Of a DNA stretch of 52,702 nucleotides, positions 3,740 through 51,636 are shown piece by piece; positions within the stretch are counted from its first letter, which is position 1, and each line of letters starts with the position of its first letter. The position numbers and the translations under genes are program-made. A model generated the notes under the pieces. The model ran no database searches. It saw only the letters and a program-made list of their open reading frames with translations, and was not told the DNA's origin. This DNA comes from Chloroflexota bacterium (GTDB taxonomy: Bacteria > Chloroflexota > Anaerolineae > J036 > Brachytrichaceae), in the NCBI GenBank assembly GCA_025354985.1, contig JANXLU010000084.1, positions 1 to 52,702 of the forward strand. Direction: 5' to 3'.

Positions 3740-6316
3740 ATGAAACCACGACTTGTTTCTAAGTCGACCATCTGGCCCGTACTCACGACCTACAACGCCA
3801 AACACCTCGGCAAAATTGCGATGCCGATAGGAGGAATTGGCACTGGCACCGTGTCACTGGGTGGACGCGGTGATTTGCGCGACTGGGAAATCTGCAATCG
3901 CCCGGCCAAGGGATTTGCGCCGCGGCAAACCTTCTTCGCGATATCCATCCGCCGGAAGGGTCGGACGCCCGTAACACGTGCTCTTGAGGGCCCGCTTGAG
4001 CTTCAAGACTACGAAGGCGCTTTTGGCAGCCGGATAAACAACCACGGACTCCCGCGATTTCGCAATTGCACATTCCACGCCTCGTATCCGCTTGGCCAAG
4101 TGCTTCTGACCGATCCCGACGTTCCGATCTCGGTTCGGCTGAAGGCTTGGAATCCACTAATACCGGGTGATGCGGATCGAAGCGGATTCCCGGTAGCAAT
4201 TCTTTCATTTGAGTTAACCAACGCCTCAGACACCGTCGCGGATGTTTCAGTCTGTGGAAATCTCGAGAACTTTATCGGCTTCGATGGGCGCGAGGGTGTC
4301 CGTGGTCTGATAAATGCCTCAAGTTCGGCCAAGTCACGGAATTTCAACACCTTTCGAGAATCCAAACCTGTACGCGGTCTATTCCTGCAGACCGCTGGTG
4401 TCGACCCACAAGATGAACGCTGGGGTACGCTTGCGCTCACCACGACCGCCCGCAGCGGGCTTACGCACCGCACACACTGGGCCGACCTAAATTGGGGCGA
4501 TTCACTGCTCGATTACTGGGACGACTTTTCCGCTGATGGCGGGCTTGACGAGCGGAAGGGCACGGCAGACAATCCAATGGCATCGCTGGCCGTGGCGCAC
4601 CGGTTGCCGGCCGGCGCGACCCGAACCGTCACATTTCTGCTCACCTGGCACTTTCCAAACCGCTATGGGTGGAGTGTGCCATCCGAGCCATCACTCACCT
4701 ATGGCAATGGTCTGCGCGAGCAGCGTGATCTTGCGGGAAACTACTATTGCCGCAAATATGCCGATGCTTGGCACGTCGCAGAAACTGTGGCATCCAGTCT
4801 CCCGACGCTGGAGCGCGACACACTAACATTTGTATCTTCATTTGTACAGAGTGACTTGCCCCAAACGGTCAAGGAAGCAGCGCTGAATAATCTCAGTACA
4901 TTGCGGACGCAGACAACGTTTCGGATCGCCAGCGGGCATCTCATGGGGTGGGAAGGCTGCGGTGACTTGCAAGGCTGTTGCTTTGGATCCTGCACACATG
5001 TGTGGAATTATGAGCACACTACCCCACTGCTCTTCGGCGCACTGGCGAAAACAATGCGTGAGGTCGAATTTATCCATTCCACCCGCAGCGATGGACTGAT
5101 CGCATTTCGCGCCGACTTAAATTTGGAGCGCGCCAGGGAATGGATAAATGCCGCCGCGGATGGCCAAATGGGTTGCTTGATAAAGCTGTATCGCGAATGG
5201 CAACTGAGCGGAGATGATCATTTTCTTCGCACCATGTGGCCCGCCGCGCGGTCCGCGCTTGAATTCTGCTGGCGACCCGGTGGGTGGGATGCGGATCAAG
5301 ACGGGGTTATGGAAGGCTGCCAACACAACACCATGGATGTGGAGTACTACGGTCCAAACCCGCAGATGGGCACGTGGTATTTGGGTGCGCTTCGGGCCAT
5401 GCAGGAAATGAGCCGACATCTTGGTGACACGACGCTTTCAGACAAATGTGCGCGTTTGTTTCAAAGTGGCAGCGTCTGGCTCGACGCCCATCTATTTAAT
5501 GGAGAATATTATGAGCACGAGATCCGTGCCCCGGCTAAGGATGCCCTGATTCTGCCGGGTCTGCGGGTTGGGATGGGTGCCAATGACCTGGAAGAACCAG
5601 ACCTGCAATTGGGCGCCGGGTGCCTGATTGATCAACTGGTGGGTCAGGCCGTGGCCCACGCATGCGGGCTGGGCTATCTGTTGGACCAGTCCCATGTCAA
5701 GGCGACGTTGCAGGCCATCATGAAGCACAACTACCGGCGTGGCTTTCAGGATCATTTCAATCACCTGCGTAGTTTTGTGCTAGGCGATGAGTCCGCATTG
5801 TTGATGGCGACGTATCCACGCGGTCGCCGGCCTCGGCGCCCGTTCCCTTACTTCAACGAGGTCATGACGGGTTTTGAATACACCGCCGCCGTCGGGATGT
5901 TATACGAGGGGCTGCGCGCACCTGGTTTGGCGGTGATCAAATCAGTTCGCGAACGATACGATGGCCACAAGCGTAATCCCTTTGACGAAGCAGAATGCGG
6001 GCATCACTATGCACGCGCCATGGCCGCTTGGGGCGCCGTGCTCGCGCTCACAGGTTTTCACTACTCCGCCGTGACCAAAATTCTGTCATTTGGGAAATTC
6101 TCCGGCACGCAGTTTTGGTCCAACGGCTACGCTTGGGGCACCTGCTGTCAGCTTGTTACCGGGAACACCGTTTGCTTGTCACTAAAGGTGTTGTTTGGCG
6201 AGTTATATGTGCGCCAGGTGACCGTACGCGGTCACACGCCACATATATTCAAAACAACGAGGACGCTCACTGCCGGCCGGCACATTGCTGATTTGGTTCT
6301 TGCCCAGCCGGTTTAG
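3740..6316 (+). CDS. GH116-family glycosidase (GBA2-like, beta-glucosidase/glucosylceramidase type)
   Basis: Probably hydrolyses beta-glucosides or related beta-glycosides. The 858-residue protein has an N-terminal beta-sandwich domain (about 20-330, opening with MPIGGIGTGTVSLGGRGDLRDWEI) and a C-terminal (alpha/alpha)6 domain (about 350-840). By eye, the Glu in GWEGCGD (near residue 405) sits where the family nucleophile lies, and the Asp in NTMDVEYYGPN (near 532) where the general acid lies; these alignments are inference. No signal peptide, so it is probably cytoplasmic, as is usual for bacterial members. A NUDIX gene follows after 20 nt. Substrate is unknown; no transporter or glycan gene is adjacent. 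Confidence 0.85.
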   Translation: MKPRLVSKSTIWPVLTTYNAKHLGKIAMPIGGIGTGTVSLGGRGDLRDWEICNRPAKGFAPRQTFFAISIRRKGRTPVTRALEGPLELQDYEGAFGSRINNHGLPRFRNCTFHASYPLGQVLLTDPDVPISVRLKAWNPLIPGDADRSGFPVAILSFELTNASDTVADVSVCGNLENFIGFDGREGVRGLINASSSAKSRNFNTFRESKPVRGLFLQTAGVDPQDERWGTLALTTTARSGLTHRTHWADLNWGDSLLDYWDDFSADGGLDERKGTADNPMASLAVAHRLPAGATRTVTFLLTWHFPNRYGWSVPSEPSLTYGNGLREQRDLAGNYYCRKYADAWHVAETVASSLPTLERDTLTFVSSFVQSDLPQTVKEAALNNLSTLRTQTTFRIASGHLMGWEGCGDLQGCCFGSCTHVWNYEHTTPLLFGALAKTMREVEFIHSTRSDGLIAFRADLNLERAREWINAAADGQMGCLIKLYREWQLSGDDHFLRTMWPAARSALEFCWRPGGWDADQDGVMEGCQHNTMDVEYYGPNPQMGTWYLGALRAMQEMSRHLGDTTLSDKCARLFQSGSVWLDAHLFNGEYYEHEIRAPAKDALILPGLRVGMGANDLEEPDLQLGAGCLIDQLVGQAVAHACGLGYLLDQSHVKATLQAIMKHNYRRGFQDHFNHLRSFVLGDESALLMATYPRGRRPRRPFPYFNEVMTGFEYTAAVGMLYEGLRAPGLAVIKSVRERYDGHKRNPFDEAECGHHYARAMAAWGAVLALTGFHYSAVTKILSFGKFSGTQFWSNGYAWGTCCQLVTGNTVCLSLKVLFGELYVRQVTVRGHTPHIFKTTRTLTAGRHIADLVLAQPV

Positions 6317-16912: not shown

Positions 16913-16947
16913 ATACGCGAGCCAGCGGTGTGTGCTGGCTCGCGTAT
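16913..16947 (+). terminator. Perfect 14-bp hairpin between rseP and the HEAT gene
   Basis: ATACGCGAGCCAGC (16913-16926) pairs perfectly with GCTGGCTCGCGTAT (16934-16947) around a 7-nt loop. No U tract follows. It lies 55 nt after the rseP stop and 32 nt before the next ATG, so it may end rseP, protect an mRNA end or act in the HEAT gene leader. Confidence 0.5.
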
Positions 16948-20572: not shown

Positions 20573-20603
20573 GCGGGCATCTTGAACATTACAAGATGCC
20601 CGC
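20573..20603. terminator. Hairpin between converging ettA and VOC genes
   Basis: GCGGGCATCTTG (20573-20584) pairs perfectly with CAAGATGCCCGC (20592-20603) around a 7-nt loop. It lies 12 nt from both stops, so it can serve both strands. No U tract in either direction. Confidence 0.65.
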
Positions 20604-20615
20604 CCGCCGCCGCTA

Positions 20616-21029
20616 CTATGCCTTTGGCCGCTCGCTCTTGCTAAACCAATTTCCACATCCATCACGAAACAAGGCTTCTGTCCCGTAAAACTGCTTTATC
20701 GGCGGCTGTAGGAATTCAACTCCCTTGGCTTTCATGTCTTCGTAGGTCGCCTGGCAATCATCGCAATCTAACACGCCTGCGCCCATCAGGTTGTTTTCCA
20801 AGAGGTATTTGCGCGCTGCGAGCCCTTCCTCACTCATGCTACCCGGCATCGGAATATATAGCGTAATTTCGAGCTTTGGATCTTGTGGCGCATGCAAAGT
20901 CAACCAACGGAATCCATTGTCCATCGTGAAGTCCGTGGCTACCTTGAACCCCAATTTCGTGACGTAAAAGTCGTAGGCCTTGTCAATATCCAAAACGTTG
21001 ATCGTCGCGTGAGACATGTGTGTAATCAT
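20616..21029 (-). CDS. VOC (glyoxalase/bleomycin-resistance fold) protein
   Basis: Metal-dependent VOC-fold enzyme or binding protein; substrate unknown. The 137-residue protein shows two beta-alpha-beta-beta-beta halves: SHATINVLDIDKAYDFYVTKLGFKV begins the first, and CQATYEDMKAKGVEF with GTEALFRDGCGNWF the second, the latter being the usual metal-ligand strand region. The ATG at 21029 is chosen because AGGA lies 7 nt upstream; an in-frame start at 21068 lacks a site. It is the last gene of the minus-strand TetR-TgpA-AraC-VOC group. Confidence 0.85.
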   Translation of the reverse strand: MITHMSHATINVLDIDKAYDFYVTKLGFKVATDFTMDNGFRWLTLHAPQDPKLEITLYIPMPGSMSEEGLAARKYLLENNLMGAGVLDCDDCQATYEDMKAKGVEFLQPPIKQFYGTEALFRDGCGNWFSKSERPKA

Positions 21030-21090
21030 GGTTATTTCCTGTGACCCACACGTTACCCGATGATGCACTCAGGCGCATATCGAAAATTGC

Positions 21091-21489
21091 TCAGACACCT
21101 TCCATTTGAATTCCTGCAGCGCATAAGAAACAATAAGGCACATACCGTTGGGCCAGATACTGGCGCATCGCGCGTGCGCGATAACGGGCCGGGGTCTGCC
21201 CCACCCGCCTACGAAACAGCGCGCTAAATGAACTTGGGCTCGAAAAGCCGACGTCCACGCAAGCTCGGATGACAGCGGTGCCTTGTGCAAGCAGCAACCG
21301 TGCCGCACGGATGCGGCATTCCATTGCAAATTGATGGGGGGTGATTCCATATGCACTGGCAAACGCCCGAATAAAGTAGAACCACGACAGATGCGTCTGC
21401 CGGGATAATTCTGCAATATCCAAGGTCTCTACAAAATGTCGCTCAATGTGTGCCCGTGCAAGTACCAGGCAGTGTGTTTCGGCGCTCAT
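21091..21489 (-). CDS. AraC-type DNA-binding protein, stand-alone HTH domain
   Basis: Transcription regulator made almost only of the AraC DNA-binding domain (132 residues). Both helix-turn-helix units are visible: LDIAELSRQTHLSWFYFIRAFASAYG and VIRACVDVGFSSPSSFSALFRRRVGQTPARYR. There is no sensor domain, so a signal is either bound by this domain or supplied otherwise. The ATG at 21489 overlaps the stop of the transglutaminase gene (ATGA), a translational coupling signal. A VOC gene follows; small AraC proteins beside VOC genes are a known pairing. Its target is unknown. Confidence 0.88.
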   Translation of the reverse strand: MSAETHCLVLARAHIERHFVETLDIAELSRQTHLSWFYFIRAFASAYGITPHQFAMECRIRAARLLLAQGTAVIRACVDVGFSSPSSFSALFRRRVGQTPARYRARAMRQYLAQRYVPYCFLCAAGIQMEGV

Positions 21490-23777
21490 TCTTCCTGTTT
21501 TTTTTGCAGACCCAGTTTGGCCTTTAGCCAGGTCCACCTAAACTCGCCCAGCACCCGTTTAAGCAAAAGCATCGCCCGCCCCTCGTCATCGGCAACATCA
21601 TCAGGCATGGGCGCACGAGGGCCAAACTTACCGGCCACATACAACTCAGTAATCGCCCGTGACGGCAGTTCAGTCCGCGGTGCGCGGCGCGCCAACTGCT
21701 GTGCCTGCTCATAAGGCGTCACGCTTGCGCCAATGCCCAGCCAACTTGCCCACCGGCTGAGCACTGCATAGGCCTTGGCAGCCGGCGCATACATTGACAG
21801 GCCGCGCGTCTCAGCATATCGAACGCCAAGAATAGCCAGCACCATCAACAGCGCGGCGCCCAGCACAAACGGCAACACCACGGCCAAAACCGCAAATATC
21901 GCGGCCAATACACTCAGTGCTTCCGCGACGAGTCCTGTGGGATCGGGCGTCTGCCGTTCCGCTGGTTTTGGAACAGCCGTGGGCTGCGGGGTCTCTCCCG
22001 GTGCGAGCGTGGGTGTTGGCGCAATAGTCGGGGTTGAAACCGCAGTCGGTTGCGCCTGGGGCTCGCTTGATCGGGAAATTGGGGCCTGCCCGGCGGTCGG
22101 TTCAAAATTTACCCAGCCATAGCTTGGGAAGAAAGCCTCGACCCAGGCGTGCCGATCACGCTGCAGCACGCTATACGAAGTCAGGTCGCCACCCAATTCG
22201 TTGCGCTGGGGCTGGCCTTGGGCAAAGCCTTCGACCAGACGCGATGGAATGCCTTGCGAGCGCAGCATCATGGTCATGGCCGTGGCGTAGTACGTGCAAT
22301 AGGCGCGCTTGATATCAAACAAAATATAGTCGCTGCCTTCCACACCGACTGGCGGGGCCGGAATGTTTTCATCGTAGGCGATATTTTTGCGCAAATATTG
22401 TTCGATGCTGACCGCCTTGTCAAAGGCCGTCCGATCCGCACTGGTTATTTGCGCCGCCAGATCGCGCACGCGGCGCGGGACGTTTGCAGGCACTGTCAAA
22501 TACTTCTGTGTCACCCATGCCGGATAAACAGTTGGCGCGCGCCGCAATTTGTCAACCTCTGCAGTGCTGACGGACCCAATGGTGGAGAACGACGCCCCGG
22601 TTTGCAACGCCGAAGCGACGCGTATCTGCACAATTTCATTGGGCGCAGTGCGCGACCCGTTCACCACCATTTGGCTTGCCAAGCTGGCATTGAGCGGCTG
22701 GCCGGTGGTGTAGAGGCTGTCGGTGCCGCGTGCCAGCACAAACTGCGCCGATACCGCCGTGCGGCTTAGGTATCCGGTCACCGAAACAACGCTTTTGCTG
22801 GCCGCCGTATCAACAAAGTCCGACAGTGTGTTGCGCCACTTGGCGCCGTCATATGCGTCAAACGAGCGCGCCCGCCAATAGTTGCGAACGTCGTTCCGCG
22901 CGAGCACGGACATCACTGGGTCGGTTGGCAGGTCGCGCGGACCGCCCAGCACCAGATCGGTCGAAAACTCCTCAGACGGCTTGATGTTGTAATTGCGAAT
23001 ACCGCTAAACAACCGCCCAATTTCCTGTTGGGTTTCGCTGTAGGGCTGGCTCAGTCTGTTAAAAAACTCCTGCGCACTTTGCCCCTGCGCCAAATCCGGC
23101 ACCTGCCAGGCAAGCAGGATTGCTATAAGGCCGATCGCCATTCCGGCAAAGCCAAGAATACCGCGAAGATTGGTGGCATAACGCATCCGCATGCTTTGCC
23201 ACACCTCCTCTCGCTGACTTACGAATGAATTGACCAACAGTGCAATCACCGCAAGCAAAAACACCGCCAGATACACATCCAAGTTGTTCTTGCCACTGTA
23301 GTAATAGACGTTGCAGAACAATACAAAGCCTGTGGGCAGGATTACATGCCAAACCCGGTTGTGCCGAAACGTGTACCATGCCGCGGAATATGCAAACAGC
23401 CAGGTCACACCGACCACAATGATGAAGAAGTGCAGAGTCTCACGCGTGGCCCCGCGGTGCAGCGCTTGGTAGATCACATCGTTCAGTCGCTGTCCCATTC
23501 CGAGAATGCGCTCGCGCCAAGTGAGCCCGCGGGCAAATTGTTCGCTTAGACCGGCTGCAAGCCCAACCACAAACGTTCCATACATCGCGGCGGTCAGGTG
23601 TGCCGTCCAACTCGGGAAATTGCTGTAGCTCAGCGCCGCACCTGCAACCAATCCTGCCACCGCCACCCAACCGGCAATCGCCAACCCTGGCATCCACTCC
23701 GCAGCGGCTATCGCATTGGTGGTCGCCAGCATCATGGCCAGCAGCGCATAAAAGATGACGAGCTTTGAGTTTCGCAT
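21486..23777 (-). CDS. TgpA-like membrane transglutaminase-fold protein
   Basis: Membrane protein with a periplasmic or extracellular transglutaminase-like (cysteine protease fold) domain. About six hydrophobic segments occupy residues 1-225. The catalytic core has Cys494 in RAYCTYYATAMTMMLRSQGIPSR, His543 in DRHAWVEAFF and the acidic residue in WVNFEPTAG (Glu559, in place of the more common Asp). A Pro/Thr-rich linker (about 565-620) leads to one more membrane helix (about 625-655) and a cytoplasmic DUF4129-like tail. 763 residues. Its ATG directly abuts the TetR stop, and its end overlaps the AraC gene. Usual partners of this family (MoxR ATPase, DUF58 protein) are absent here. Confidence 0.9.
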   Translation of the reverse strand: MRNSKLVIFYALLAMMLATTNAIAAAEWMPGLAIAGWVAVAGLVAGAALSYSNFPSWTAHLTAAMYGTFVVGLAAGLSEQFARGLTWRERILGMGQRLNDVIYQALHRGATRETLHFFIIVVGVTWLFAYSAAWYTFRHNRVWHVILPTGFVLFCNVYYYSGKNNLDVYLAVFLLAVIALLVNSFVSQREEVWQSMRMRYATNLRGILGFAGMAIGLIAILLAWQVPDLAQGQSAQEFFNRLSQPYSETQQEIGRLFSGIRNYNIKPSEEFSTDLVLGGPRDLPTDPVMSVLARNDVRNYWRARSFDAYDGAKWRNTLSDFVDTAASKSVVSVTGYLSRTAVSAQFVLARGTDSLYTTGQPLNASLASQMVVNGSRTAPNEIVQIRVASALQTGASFSTIGSVSTAEVDKLRRAPTVYPAWVTQKYLTVPANVPRRVRDLAAQITSADRTAFDKAVSIEQYLRKNIAYDENIPAPPVGVEGSDYILFDIKRAYCTYYATAMTMMLRSQGIPSRLVEGFAQGQPQRNELGGDLTSYSVLQRDRHAWVEAFFPSYGWVNFEPTAGQAPISRSSEPQAQPTAVSTPTIAPTPTLAPGETPQPTAVPKPAERQTPDPTGLVAEALSVLAAIFAVLAVVLPFVLGAALLMVLAILGVRYAETRGLSMYAPAAKAYAVLSRWASWLGIGASVTPYEQAQQLARRAPRTELPSRAITELYVAGKFGPRAPMPDDVADDEGRAMLLLKRVLGEFRWTWLKAKLGLQKKQEE

Positions 23778-24437
23778 TTAGTCCATCAAATGTATCGATG
23801 GATGATGAGCGCCGCCTAACAGGCCGTTCAGCACGTGATCAGCGAGGTGGTCGATAAAGTCATCATTCAGCGGCAAATGACGCACCAGCATCCGGTAATA
23901 AATTGGGCCGTATAGTGCGTCCATGACCACATTTAGATCCAGATTCGCCCGCAACTCACCTTGATCCATCCCACGTTGCAATACGCGTCGCGTATCCTCA
24001 CGGCGGATCAATATCCAATGATTCAGCAATGCATCGGCCACGGTGGGGTCGTCTTGCGCTTCCGCAACAAGCGCGGCGATGACCCGCCCACTCTTCCCGC
24101 TGAAGGCGCGCGCCAGTGCCCGCATCTGTAATCGCAGGTCTTCGCTCACCGGTCCGCTATGCAAAAAACCAATCGTTGACGCGGTTTGCTGCAAGAAACG
24201 TTCGGTGATAATGGCGGCCTTGTTATGCCAGTGCCGGTAGATGGTTGCCTTGCTTACTCCCGCACGCGCCGCAATCGCCTCCATGGTCACCGCCCGAAAA
24301 CCGTGTTTGTCAAGCAACTCACCCGCTGCATTCAAGATGGCTTGATGTGCAACAGTACTGCGCGGCCGTCCCGCGCCCAATGTTTGAACTACTTTGCGCG
24401 TGGTTTTTGCTTGGATCACGATACAAATTCTATCCAT
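23778..24437 (-). CDS. TetR/AcrR-family transcriptional repressor
   Basis: Ligand-responsive repressor. The N-terminal HTH is classic: AILNAAGELLDKHGFRAVTMEAIAARAGVSKATIYRHWHNKAAII. The C-terminal helical ligand domain (about 75-219) is of the TetR_C type with a dimerising region near LDLNVVMDALYGPIYYRML. ATG 24437 is chosen (219 residues): the consensus promoter for the divergent operon would otherwise lie inside this gene; a start at 24470 remains possible. A perfect palindrome at 24486-24510 is the likely operator. It is the first gene of a minus-strand operon with the transglutaminase gene. Confidence 0.9.
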   Translation of the reverse strand: MDRICIVIQAKTTRKVVQTLGAGRPRSTVAHQAILNAAGELLDKHGFRAVTMEAIAARAGVSKATIYRHWHNKAAIITERFLQQTASTIGFLHSGPVSEDLRLQMRALARAFSGKSGRVIAALVAEAQDDPTVADALLNHWILIRREDTRRVLQRGMDQGELRANLDLNVVMDALYGPIYYRMLVRHLPLNDDFIDHLADHVLNGLLGGAHHPSIHLMD

Positions 24438-24452
24438 TGCCCCATTTACACC

Positions 24453-24481
24453 TTGACAAACGTCTTCCATGGCCCTAAACT
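24453..24481 (+). promoter_or_regulatory. Consensus promoter of the VOC-PPOX-monooxygenase operon
   Basis: TTGACA (24453-24458), 17-nt spacer, TAAACT (24476-24481). The predicted transcription start near 24488 falls inside the TetR-type palindrome. A second, weaker box TACAAC (24511-24516) lies 6 nt before the ATG. Confidence 0.7.
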
Positions 24482-24485
24482 TCGG

Positions 24486-24510
24486 AATACGAAACGGTTG
24501 GTTTCGTATT
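24486..24510. promoter_or_regulatory. TetR-type operator palindrome
   Basis: AATACGAAAC (24486-24495), GGTTG, GTTTCGTATT (24501-24510): a perfect 10+5+10 inverted repeat, typical in length and symmetry for a TetR-family site. It lies between the divergent TetR and VOC genes and covers the start of rightward transcription, so TetR bound here should block that operon and may also affect its own gene. Confidence 0.75.
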
Positions 24511-24522
24511 TACAACTCTTTT

Positions 24523-24975
24523 ATGCATATTAAGAAACTAGATCACAGCGCGTTGATCGTCTCGGACTTGGCCCGTACGCGCCACTTTTATGGCGAGGTA
24601 CTTGGCATGCTCGAGGTTGCGCGCCCGGATAATTTCACGTTTGCGGGCTGCTGGTTCCGTGGCGAGGGGTTCGAGCTTCATTTTATTTGCGAGTCGGATA
24701 CCACTGCAGTGGCCGGCTTTGGCGATCTCGGTACGGGCGCTAAAAAGGGACTCGCCCATCATCTCGGTCTCGAGGTCGAAAATATTCGGGCGGTGGAGTC
24801 CCACCTGCGAACAAACGGGGTGCCAATTGTGGCTGGACCGCTTCCCCGCGGTGATGGCGTCACACAGCTGTATGTGCTCGACCCGGACGGAACCTTTCTG
24901 GAGTTTTTCCAGTGGGACCCGGAGTCAAATCTCGTTGTTGAAGAACGCGGCGCCGTCTCGCGAAATATTCGATAG
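24523..24975 (+). CDS. VOC-family protein (glyoxalase/fosfomycin-bleomycin resistance fold)
   Basis: Metal-dependent VOC-fold enzyme, possibly acting on a small organic or antibiotic-like compound. The 150-residue protein starts KKLDHSALIVSDLARTRHFYGEVLGM, with the first metal-ligand His at residue 7. The second half contains AHHLGLEVENIRAVESHLRTNGVPI and the final strand YVLDPDGTFLEFFQWD, where the Glu of LEFF is the usual last ligand. It is the first gene behind the TetR-type operator and heads a three-gene operon with a PPOX oxidoreductase and a FAD monooxygenase. Confidence 0.88.
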   Translation: MHIKKLDHSALIVSDLARTRHFYGEVLGMLEVARPDNFTFAGCWFRGEGFELHFICESDTTAVAGFGDLGTGAKKGLAHHLGLEVENIRAVESHLRTNGVPIVAGPLPRGDGVTQLYVLDPDGTFLEFFQWDPESNLVVEERGAVSRNIR

Positions 24976-25010
24976 CCTCGCAATATCCAATCATTTACCA
25001 GAAAAAACCC

Positions 25011-25523
25011 ATGTCATACGAAATCGCAGATGTCATTACCCCGGGTCATGAGCAAGCGTTCAAAGTCGGATCGCGCACACCCGCCACCAGTCTGGCGTCG
25101 TTGGCCGCTGTCCATTTGGCTCTGCTCAACGATCCAATCACCGCGTCAGTGGCGACCGTAAATGCCGACGGCATTGCACAATTGACACCAAACTGGTTGG
25201 AACATGATGGCACACACGTATTTCTAAATTCGGTGCGGGGTCGACTCAAGGACCGCAACCTGCGCGTACGTCCGCATGTCACCATAATGCTGGTAAACAC
25301 CAAGAATCCGTATCACTGGATAACCATTTATGGCGAGATCACCCGCGTTGTTGAAGAAGATCACGCCACCGATGGACATCTTGCAACGGACAGTATTAAC
25401 CGGCTTTCCAAAAAGTATCTAGGCACCACGCCCTATCCCTTGCGTGACCCAAAAGGAGAAATTCGCGTCCTATATACGGTCGCGATTCATCGTATTGTGA
25501 CATTTGGCCCGGTTGGTGGGTAA
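25011..25523 (+). CDS. PPOX-fold (pyridoxamine oxidase-like) F420- or FMN-dependent oxidoreductase
   Basis: Split-barrel flavin/deazaflavin oxidoreductase. The 170-residue protein has the family pattern: ITASVATVNADGIAQLTPNWLEHDGTHVFLNSVRGRLKDRNLRVRPHVTIMLVN in the cofactor-binding barrel, then WITIYGEITRVVEE and KKYLGTTPYP near the end. The pattern resembles the F420-dependent Rv1155-type subgroup more than PdxH; the cofactor is inferred. It lies 35 nt after the VOC gene and 9 nt before the monooxygenase gene. In this operon it could reduce or detoxify the same compound. Confidence 0.85.
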   Translation: MSYEIADVITPGHEQAFKVGSRTPATSLASLAAVHLALLNDPITASVATVNADGIAQLTPNWLEHDGTHVFLNSVRGRLKDRNLRVRPHVTIMLVNTKNPYHWITIYGEITRVVEEDHATDGHLATDSINRLSKKYLGTTPYPLRDPKGEIRVLYTVAIHRIVTFGPVGG

Positions 25524-25532
25524 CCGCCAAAC

Positions 25533-26729
25533 ATGAACGTGCGCATGCCCCGCGTTGCCATCATAGGTGGCTCGTTGGCCGGTTTAACTGCAGCCTTGGC
25601 GTTGCAGGAGATAGGCTGCGACGTCAATATTTACGAACGCGCCCGGGCGCGCCTGTCCGGAATGGGTGCGGGCATTGTTCTCAACCCGGTCACTGTCGCG
25701 TATTTGCATGGCCAGCCGAATTTTGATTTGGATAGCGCAAGTATCACCACGCAACACGTTCATTATTTATCGGCGAATGATGAAATAGTTCACGACCAAG
25801 TTTCCCCCCACCGACTGGGTTCGTATAACACGTTGTATCGCGAACTAATTGGCCGGTTCGACGCAGCCCGATATCATCTATCCGCGACGCTACGCGCTAT
25901 CTCCCAGAAGGATGACATTGTGTCAGCACAACTCCTGAACGGCAAGGTGATTGCGTGTGACTTGCTCGTCTGTGCGGATGGTATTCGTTCAGCGGGACGG
26001 CACTTGCTATTCCCGGAGATCGACGCAACGTACGCGGGTTACGTGGCGTTCCGCGGAACGGTCAAACAGTCTCAAATGGAAACAAAACGCTATGACCGCT
26101 TCGCCGATGCCATAACCTATCATCTACTGCCGTCATCGCACCTATTGGTTTATCCCATACCGCATGACGGCGCAAACGAACCATCCGGTCGGTCAGAGTT
26201 GAACTGGCTTTGGTACCGTAACGTTACATCCGGTCAGGCACTTAGCGACCTCTTGATGGATCGCGATGGGGTAACCCGCGACTTGTCGGTGCCCCTCGGC
26301 ATGATGTCTGACAACGCACGCCATCAATTACACGAAGATGCCGCCGTACTGCCTGCATCGCTGCGTGACATCGTCCGCGCCACCGAACGTCCGTTTGTCC
26401 AAGTCATTGTCGATCTTGAAATGAAGCGGATGGTCAGCGGTCGTGCGTGCCTAATAGGGGACGCGGCCTTCGTCGCGCGCCCACACGCCGCAGCCGGAAC
26501 AGCCAAGGCTGCCGCCGACGCGCTATCCCTCGCCAGAGCGCTGTCCGAAGCAAATGGAGATGTTCCGACCGCTCTGGCCCGTTGGGAACCTGCACAACTG
26601 GCCCTCGGTATGTCCGTCGTAGCGCGCACGCGGTTGGCCGGTCGGCGAGCTCAGGTTACCAATGAGTGGCAGGTGGGTGAAGCGCTGCCGTTCGGTCTTT
26701 ATCAGTCCGGGGACAGCATAATGGCATGA
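25533..26729 (+). CDS. FAD-dependent aromatic-type monooxygenase
   Basis: Probable flavoprotein hydroxylase of the PHBH/UbiH superfamily, acting on an aromatic or polycyclic substrate. Dinucleotide motif VAIIGGSLAGLTAALALQEIG at the N-terminus, the DG motif in CDLLVCADGIRS (about 150), and the GD motif in ACLIGDAAFVARPHAAAGTAKAAADALSLARAL (about 310-340) are all present. 398 residues is normal. It is the last gene of the TetR-controlled operon. The family includes antibiotic-modifying enzymes such as Tet(X), but the substrate cannot be read from the sequence. Confidence 0.9.
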   Translation: MNVRMPRVAIIGGSLAGLTAALALQEIGCDVNIYERARARLSGMGAGIVLNPVTVAYLHGQPNFDLDSASITTQHVHYLSANDEIVHDQVSPHRLGSYNTLYRELIGRFDAARYHLSATLRAISQKDDIVSAQLLNGKVIACDLLVCADGIRSAGRHLLFPEIDATYAGYVAFRGTVKQSQMETKRYDRFADAITYHLLPSSHLLVYPIPHDGANEPSGRSELNWLWYRNVTSGQALSDLLMDRDGVTRDLSVPLGMMSDNARHQLHEDAAVLPASLRDIVRATERPFVQVIVDLEMKRMVSGRACLIGDAAFVARPHAAAGTAKAAADALSLARALSEANGDVPTALARWEPAQLALGMSVVARTRLAGRRAQVTNEWQVGEALPFGLYQSGDSIMA

Positions 26730-26826: not shown

Positions 26827-28827
26827 TTAGTCTCTACCAAACAGCGATATACGTGTCAGCGAAGTCGCCCAGTTGCCCAGCGACCGACGGGTAGCGTTGC
26901 AGCTGCCAAATGGAATGGCCAGGTATTCAGTGAGCGTACAACTGTGCGCAATATATTCGCCTCCAATCCAAATATTCCGGCCATCGCTAACCGCCGCGCC
27001 ATAGTCTCCCCAGCGTTTGCTGCCAAGCCCGCTTCCGGCATAGACCACATAATCGCTGAATGTGTCGGAAACGCCCGCCCCCGCAGCGGCTATGCGAACC
27101 GGCCCGACGCGGCCATCATGGTCAAGGGTTACATAGCCGGTGCTTGGATAATAATCGGTGCCGATGACCGAGAAACCAATGACACCGCGTTCATTCGTGC
27201 CCATGGTGATCGCCGGATAAACCAAATTGTTGCCCGCCAGACCCACATAACCCTGTTTTTCGATTTCGCCTGACAGATGTTCGCGCTCGGCCTCCGGGCT
27301 GACTTGGAACCAAATGATCCCGGCTTGCACTCGGCCACCAACTCGAAGTGCAGTTCCTGCCGCGCCATACAGCCGTCCGTTTACGAACCAGGTCTGCTGC
27401 ATCCGGGCATCCTGTGAATCAAGCGCAGCGATTTGTTCATTGTGCGCAGGTTCAGTACCAAAGAACTTGCGCCAGCAACCCACGCCATTGTTGGTTACCG
27501 TTGTCGCATCATTTATACACTCGCGTAGCGGCGCCGGCCCTGGTTTTTGCGCCGCCTTTGGCGGATAAATGTAGGTCCTGCTTCCTATAAGTGTGCTTCG
27601 CATGCGCAACGCAGGCGACGCCGTGTTAAGCGAGCTTGTGTTGGTCAATGCCCAGAGCGCTATCTTGTTATTTGTGCCAGTTGGGTTTCCGGTTTCCAAA
27701 CCGTCACCGGCAATTGTGCTTAGGAAATATTCAGTTCCGTTATTGCGCTGTTCGTATTGACCCATTTCAGAGTTGGCCGGCCAAACCGTGTATCCAGGAG
27801 TGCCGGCTACGGTCAGGTTTTCTACGAGTGTCAGATGTAGATTGGCCGGGTGGTCGGCCAATTCTTTTTTTGAAAAGGCAAACACCTGTGCATTGCGGTA
27901 GGCCGGACCAAACAAGTCAAATTCATTTGTCGAGATGTACATCCCGTATGCGTCCTGACCAATATGTGGATAGTCTTGAAAGCACGGTCCAGGCGTACTG
28001 CCGTCGGTAGTGCAATGATGATTCGGCGTACCGTCCGTGCCATCGTTCTGCGCGGGGACTTTATAAACGGTCCAAGGACCGGTTGGATCTCCAGTGTTGG
28101 ACACAGCGATATCAATCGTATTCTTGCCGGTCAGGCCCTGCGAGACCGGCTCAACGCCAAGCGTTGTCAGCGCAATAACAAAGCGTTTATGATCCGGATC
28201 ATATACACATACAGGGTCGATCAAATTTGAGCCGGCCAAACCCGTCGCATAGTTCATTGCTGCCGGATAGGCAAAAAACGTATTGAGGTCTTGAATCGGT
28301 GAAACTGCCGAACCAGCATCAGAGTCAAGCACTCGAATTACGCTATTCACCACTTCAACAACAAATCCATTGCCCACGCACAACGCCTGGCCCGGTGGAT
28401 CCGCAGAAACCTGATTGCCATTATTGGCACCGCGCGTGTCTCTAAAGTTCAATCCCTCTACAGTGAGCGTCGCCTCCCGACTGGTTGTGCTCACTTTTGA
28501 GCTGCGCACGGCCGGGATTGGCAATGGCGTATTCGGAAATGGTTGCGATAAGTTCGAATCCGGCGTATGGAGGCCACGTCTTCCAACTTGAGCACTTACG
28601 TTTGGCCCGCGTTGAGGTTTTGCAGGCTTATACGAGCGTATGATTGGATTAGCCGCCAACTCATGTGCTTGTATTTCATCCGCGCCAACCTCGGTCTCAC
28701 TTATCCGTGTGGTACCAATTGCCGGAACCAGCCTTGTGCCGCCCGCTGCCAACGCCGGTTGCTCACGAGCCATTGTCAGTGCGAGTGCAATTACTGTGAT
28801 GGTTGCGCTAATCCTATGCGACTTCAT
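26827..28827 (-). CDS. Secreted protein of unknown function
   Basis: Unrecognised exported protein, 666 residues. A signal peptide is visible (basic MKSHR, hydrophobic core, cleavage likely after PALAA near residue 28). The rest is rich in Gly, Asn, Thr and aromatic residues with many short strand-like segments: SADPPGQALCVGNGFVVEVVNSVIRV, DPVCVYDPDHKRFVIAL and DYPHIGQDAYGMYISTNEF suggest a beta-propeller-like fold. Several paired cysteines point to disulfides outside the cell. ATG 28827 is preferred to an in-frame TTG at 28833. The LOG gene lies upstream on the same strand, 195 nt away. No enzyme motif recognised. Confidence 0.75.
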   Translation of the reverse strand: MKSHRISATITVIALALTMAREQPALAAGGTRLVPAIGTTRISETEVGADEIQAHELAANPIIRSYKPAKPQRGPNVSAQVGRRGLHTPDSNLSQPFPNTPLPIPAVRSSKVSTTSREATLTVEGLNFRDTRGANNGNQVSADPPGQALCVGNGFVVEVVNSVIRVLDSDAGSAVSPIQDLNTFFAYPAAMNYATGLAGSNLIDPVCVYDPDHKRFVIALTTLGVEPVSQGLTGKNTIDIAVSNTGDPTGPWTVYKVPAQNDGTDGTPNHHCTTDGSTPGPCFQDYPHIGQDAYGMYISTNEFDLFGPAYRNAQVFAFSKKELADHPANLHLTLVENLTVAGTPGYTVWPANSEMGQYEQRNNGTEYFLSTIAGDGLETGNPTGTNNKIALWALTNTSSLNTASPALRMRSTLIGSRTYIYPPKAAQKPGPAPLRECINDATTVTNNGVGCWRKFFGTEPAHNEQIAALDSQDARMQQTWFVNGRLYGAAGTALRVGGRVQAGIIWFQVSPEAEREHLSGEIEKQGYVGLAGNNLVYPAITMGTNERGVIGFSVIGTDYYPSTGYVTLDHDGRVGPVRIAAAGAGVSDTFSDYVVYAGSGLGSKRWGDYGAAVSDGRNIWIGGEYIAHSCTLTEYLAIPFGSCNATRRSLGNWATSLTRISLFGRD

Positions 28828-29022
28828 AAACAATATGGTCTCAACCCAATTTCAATGAGCAATTTCTAAGTCGCACTATTGTATATGAGATATTCCTCAT
28901 TTATTCCGCGAAACCTAAGTTTATTGGCCTACACTGGCACATTCATAATAACGTACGCAAAGCTAGCATGGATACTAAGAACTAGGCTTGGTTGTGCGAT
29001 AGACTTAGCCAGTACCAAAATC

Positions 29023-51604: not shown

Positions 51605-51636
51605 ACACGAGCGCACGTTGGAATGTGCGCTCGTGT
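51605..51636. terminator. Hairpin between converging mutarotase and lipoprotein genes
   Basis: ACACGAGCGCAC (51605-51616) pairs perfectly with GTGCGCTCGTGT (51625-51636) around an 8-nt loop. It begins directly after the mutarotase stop and lies 18 nt from the lipoprotein stop. No long U tract. Confidence 0.65.

Follow-up and report, generated by a model that had tools for sequence, protein, structure and literature searches.

A TetR-linked VOC-PPOX-monooxygenase operon in a Chloroflexota bacterium and an operator pattern found beside homologous TetR genes

We analysed a stretch of 52,702 nucleotides from a Chloroflexota bacterium (contig JANXLU010000084.1; hereafter the window), with attention to a TetR gene divergent from three enzyme genes (Table 1). 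All the pieces named in an earlier reading made from the sequence without database searches (the sequence-only reading) were present, with intact reading frames. The tetR gene and the VOC-PPOX-monooxygenase operon were separated by 85 bp, and the promoter and the palindrome both lay inside this gap. ORF analysis favoured the ATG at 24437 as the start of tetR, the earlier ATG at 24470 being one that would overrun the promoter. The enzyme genes were co-directional, with intergenic gaps of 35 nt (VOC/PPOX) and 9 nt (PPOX/monooxygenase), and no plus-strand terminator-like site was found between them. Pfam and NCBIfam models gave the domains listed in Table 1. A three-enzyme operon is supported, as are the metal, flavin and FAD folds that had been predicted for the three enzymes.

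Table 1. Genes and regulatory features of the locus (positions are those of the window).
Feature	Position	Strand	Description
TetR-family repressor	23778..24437	minus	219 aa; domains TetR_N and TetR_C_11; transcribed away from the enzyme genes
Sigma70-like promoter TTGACA-17-TAAACT	24453..24481	plus	10/12 positions match
Putative operator, perfect palindrome AATACGAAAC-GGTTG-GTTTCGTATT	24486..24510	no strand	pattern conserved beside TetR homologues
VOC (glyoxalase/dioxygenase superfamily) metalloenzyme	24523..24975	plus	150 aa; Glyoxalase domain
PPOX/FDOR-B-type split-barrel oxidoreductase, F420 or FMN	25011..25523	plus	170 aa; PNPOx_N
FAD-dependent aromatic hydroxylase, PRK07236 / 2,6-dihydroxypyridine hydroxylase type	25533..26729	plus	398 aa; FAD_binding_3/PRK07236

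On one side of the locus, an apparently secreted 668-aa protein with no Pfam match was encoded at 26827-28833. On the other side, a second VOC gene (20616-21068) followed a short AraC-type HTH gene (21091-21537) that overlapped the end of a transglutaminase/TgpA-like gene. An inverted repeat with 12-bp arms (20573-20603) lay between the convergent ends of an ABC-F gene and the second VOC gene and had the look of a two-way terminator.

The palindrome was a perfect 10-5-10 repeat with the family core ACGAAACG-N3-GGTTTCGT inside it, at 24489-24507, and would overlap the operon's transcription start. The sequence-only reading had placed a consensus promoter and this palindrome between the TetR gene and the enzymes, and both were located there. 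With up to 3 mismatches allowed, the palindrome had a single occurrence in the window and no other in the whole 4.19 Mb assembly, and arms of 10 bp were reached in 2 of 3000 shuffles of the 85-bp gap. The window had some 10 places where a perfect inverted repeat reached arms of 9 bp or more, several of them terminator-like, and given these comparable repeats the rarity of the palindrome is by itself modest evidence. It is raised above chance by its position and its match to the TetR-family operator. The promoter hexamers alone numbered 3, against 2.4 in shuffles, which is no excess over chance and not significant by frequency alone. Two other perfect inverted repeats, at 16913-16947 and 51605-51636 (arms of 14 and 12 bp), are probably terminators.

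The regulator passed the cut-offs of both of its domain models (TetR_N, 61.8 bits against 24; TetR_C_11, PF16859, 103.9 bits against 32), and the nearest solved structures were the TetR regulators 2fq4 and 2zb9. For this TetR_C_11 protein we found a putative palindromic operator site beside the regulator gene in common with its homologues, of the family form ATACGAWACG-N3-CGTWTCGTAT. The Chloroflexota set comprised 30 TetR-homologue loci (E below 1e-25), including that of the window. We counted the pattern ACG-nn-ACG-nnn-CGT-nn-CGT, allowing at most 2 mismatches in 12 positions. At this tolerance ACGNNACGNNNCGTNNCGT was present upstream of 28 of the 30 genes (27/29 without the window one), while matches were found in 1/30 downstream regions and 1.9% of dinucleotide shuffles. 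This pattern was first read by eye from the Chloroflexota loci, and a held-out plasmid set alone is the clean test. That set contained 12 TetR homologues from Actinomycetota, Pseudomonadota, Acidobacteriota, Deinococcota and Bacillota, and the unchanged pattern matched 10 of them (0/12 downstream controls; 3.2% of shuffles). The positions left free in the pattern also concurred; for example, ACG was followed by A in 80%.

The window site, TACGAAACG-GTT-GGTTTCGTA, differed from the family operator pattern at one position. Because the pattern recurs beside homologous TetR genes and stands out against both kinds of control, the palindrome is very probably the operator of the window TetR itself, and the proposed TetR control through the palindrome gains support from the same counts. 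The exact palindrome was present in none of 400 Chloroflexota genomes other than that of the window; the private site that this uniqueness suggested was overturned by the family operator beside the TetR homologues. A literature search with the operator string returned nothing relevant. The estradiol repressor EdcR of Caenibius tardaugens resembles the window TetR in its PF00440 + PF16859 architecture and in having a palindromic operator at the promoter of a catabolic operon, but its proposed operator, TnnCnnTACnAnTnGTAnnGnnA, differs from the pattern described here (PMC8700777). On pSymA of Sinorhizobium meliloti (L108, 461-1570), a TetR_C_11 gene is divergent from a VOC gene, and the operator pattern recurs between the two genes or next to them. 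The protein from this VOC gene gave no alignment with the window VOC protein, and we treat the arrangement as a parallel only and not as an orthologue.

The VOC protein matched PF00903 with 49.4 bits. Residues H8, H53, H80 and E127 were invariant in five homologues and occupy the usual places of the superfamily's metal ligands, a role they would be expected to have here. A structure search with the VOC model did not separate dioxygenase, isomerase and thiol transferase (Fos-like) roles, and the fold matches included Fos enzymes and the antibiotic-binding protein TnmS.

The closest relative of the PPOX protein, both by sequence (E 5e-8) and by fold (E 2.8e-8), was MSMEG_3380 (3f7e), an F420 reductase of group FDOR-B1 (PMC8498797). 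In the fold alignment the two proteins are only about 22% identical, and the window protein has about 30 extra N-terminal residues. Its score of 70.8 bits fell below the TIGR03618 cut-off of 79.05, so that it is related to the F420-dependent PPOX class but not filed there, and its structure model was of moderate confidence (pLDDT 69). In the host genome CofD and CofE scored above cut-off, and CofG and CofH were not found in the assembly (95.8% complete). CofG and CofH are often encoded by one fused gene, so an assembly gap is a possible cause of their absence.

The monooxygenase passed the PRK07236 model (426.7 bits against a cut-off of 333), and its FAD motifs GGSLAGL, CADG and GDAA were conserved in the alignment. 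The best solved match was the 2,6-dihydroxypyridine hydroxylase 2vou (E 7e-68), and identity to DhpH of pAO1 was 37%. Hydroxylation of an activated ring by group A flavin hydroxylases of the DhpH type consumes NAD(P)H and O2. In the alignment H203 and H318 were invariant down to DhpH, and they may correspond to the two histidines proposed as proton acceptors in that enzyme (PMC6122326). The branch of the window monooxygenase was unusually long (0.82; H5_CFX7 counterpart, 0.20), and its AWRG/TWRG motif had F in place of the W of the seven other aligned proteins, whereas the VOC and PPOX proteins were not unusually diverged.

The monooxygenase belongs to the same family as DhpH, which is encoded on the nicotine plasmid pAO1 of Paenarthrobacter nicotinovorans. 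On that plasmid dhpH is accompanied by molybdenum hydroxylase subunits and a PF04199 cyclase (nicotine catabolism), and relatives of the window monooxygenase at two other loci (L037 and L030) likewise adjoin molybdenum hydroxylase subunits and PF04199 cyclases; at L102 a 2Fe-2S subunit resembling that of L037 lies near the monooxygenase gene. Unlike the pAO1 cluster, the window cassette lacks these companions and pairs its hydroxylase with VOC and PPOX proteins; no molybdenum hydroxylase, cyclase or transporter gene was found adjoining it. In the kpi cluster for 4-hydroxypyridine in Arthrobacter IN13, an inducible flavin monooxygenase hydroxylates a hydroxypyridine and a neighbouring enzyme then opens the ring (PMC7356986), a scheme similar to the one proposed here. 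Ring opening in that cluster is by the amidohydrolase-like dioxygenase KpiC and not by a VOC protein, and no PPOX partner is mentioned in the sections consulted (PMC7356986). Separately, at three loci (L026, L028 and L030) a gene for a luciferase-like (LLM) oxidoreductase precedes that of a related monooxygenase, with an M24 peptidase-like gene between the two in L026 and L028 and with molybdenum hydroxylase and cyclase genes near the pair in L030. This arrangement is possibly a conserved catabolic cluster of Thermomicrobia/Chloroflexota.

We searched for further carriers of the trio with the monooxygenase and PPOX proteins. VOC, PPOX and monooxygenase genes were neighbours in four genomes, including that of the window, in three arrangements. 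The order proposed for a search in related genomes recurred in Anaerolineales H5_CFX7 (L021; identities of 70, 68 and 54%). The trio was re-arranged in Anaerolineaceae BD1 (L022), where VOC-PPOX faces the monooxygenase gene and the VOC and PPOX reading frames are broken, and in G272 (L062), where the order is monooxygenase-VOC-PPOX. Two more loci (L037 and L102) had the monooxygenase and VOC genes only. In a tree of 26 monooxygenases, the six from these loci and the window fell in one clade of nine (support 98/96). That the neighbourhood has been re-ordered and yet retained is evidence that the three genes share a task, and their joint action is well supported.

A TetR of the window type was found at none of the other carrier loci (three trio and two monooxygenase-VOC loci), and no operator-like site lay directly upstream of the enzyme genes there. 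A hit with 2 mismatches in H5_CFX7, at 4453 and about 450 bp before the VOC gene, is likely due to chance. The sequence-only reading had taken conservation of the palindrome upstream of orthologues as its test; this failed for the enzyme orthologues, whose loci also lack the TetR, and held beside the TetR homologues. Because the other carriers show neither the window TetR nor its operator, the switch appears to be local, with regulation added, or kept, only in the window lineage. No close monooxygenase, PPOX or TetR relative was found in the same-genus and same-family genomes searched, while the base composition of the cassette was that of its surroundings, which together suggest an acquired but settled cassette. 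It probably arrived by horizontal transfer, and the TetR switch probably joined it in the window lineage. No relative of the PPOX protein was found in viral contigs. PADLOC hits were only marginal, and we therefore rejected a defence system. The type of switch is ordinary; the three-enzyme set has no name yet and recurs in a few distant relatives. In the literature searched we found no paper joining the three names, and we found no named system with the trio, in line with what the sequence-only reading had said.

We favour the reading that the locus is a ligand-inducible catabolic operon that hydroxylates and further processes a hydroxypyridine-like or phenolic ring compound, with a probability of about 0.6. 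The regulatory part of this reading is well supported by the operator comparison, and the substrate class is a reasoned guess. Several observations count against the reading: the cassette has no molybdenum hydroxylase, cyclase or transporter beside it, the monooxygenase is distant from DhpH, long-branched and has F for W in its motif, the VOC fold is ambiguous as to reaction, CofG and CofH were not found, and the other trio loci lack the TetR. A TetR dimer bound to the palindrome would cover the operon's transcription start, lie immediately upstream of tetR and repress the operon and tetR alike. Release would follow when the TetR_C_11 domain binds an aromatic or N-heteroaromatic compound or the product of its hydroxylation. 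The FAD monooxygenase would then hydroxylate the ring with NAD(P)H and O2, in the manner of 2,6-dihydroxypyridine 3-hydroxylase. The resulting polyhydroxylated compound, which is reactive, would be opened or rearranged by the VOC metalloenzyme, and the FDOR-B-type protein would use F420H2 (or FMN) to reduce an intermediate that is quinone-like or unsaturated. Overall, the ring compound would be removed and perhaps used.

The same genes could instead form an inducible self-protection cassette that detoxifies a toxic natural product or antibiotic without feeding a catabolic route, by hydroxylation, metal-dependent thiol addition or sequestration, and F420 reduction. Promiscuous FDOR reductases have been linked to detoxification (PMC8498797), downstream catabolic genes do not adjoin the operon, and Fos enzymes and TnmS are among the VOC fold matches. 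However, the antibiotic inactivation suggested by the sequence-only reading received no specific support, as scores were far under the cut-offs for tetracycline destructase (50 against 550 bits) and Fos (42 against 250 bits). Catabolic neighbourhoods surround the monooxygenase relatives and no efflux pump is adjacent, and we regard self-protection as rather unlikely.

Biosynthetic tailoring, in which the hydroxylase, VOC protein and F420 reductase would modify a secondary metabolite under TetR as a pathway-specific regulator, has a precedent in several antibiotic pathways in which FDOR-B proteins carry out tailoring steps (PMC8498797). Among the ORFs from 18.9 to 31 kb, and beside the trio in the other three genomes, we saw no core biosynthetic gene, and we regard tailoring as very improbable here. 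Least credible of all is that the palindrome is an inverted repeat of chance or structural origin, with the operon constitutive. The roughly ten places in the window with arms of at least 9 bp would allow it, but the site fits a TetR-family operator pattern obtained from two homologue sets with controls and is located next to the promoter, within the 85 bp that separate the divergent genes.

Within the catabolic reading, the trio could be an undescribed ring-degradation module in which the VOC protein opens a trihydroxylated N-heterocycle made by the DhpH-type enzyme, with the F420 reductase acting on the unstable product to rescue or reduce it; in this specific form we consider the proposal speculative and unlikely. 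For the pyridine pathway of nicotine degradation, what becomes of trihydroxypyridine has been called unclear (PMC6122326), and if the VOC protein opens the ring, this gap in the trihydroxypyridine branch would be filled. The conserved hydroxylase-VOC-FDOR set may process N-heteroaromatic compounds in Chloroflexota. The operator pattern, met in Chloroflexota, Actinomycetota, Pseudomonadota and others, supplies a broad TetR subfamily with a regulator-operator pair open to testing, which may be of use in regulon prediction and in building sensors.
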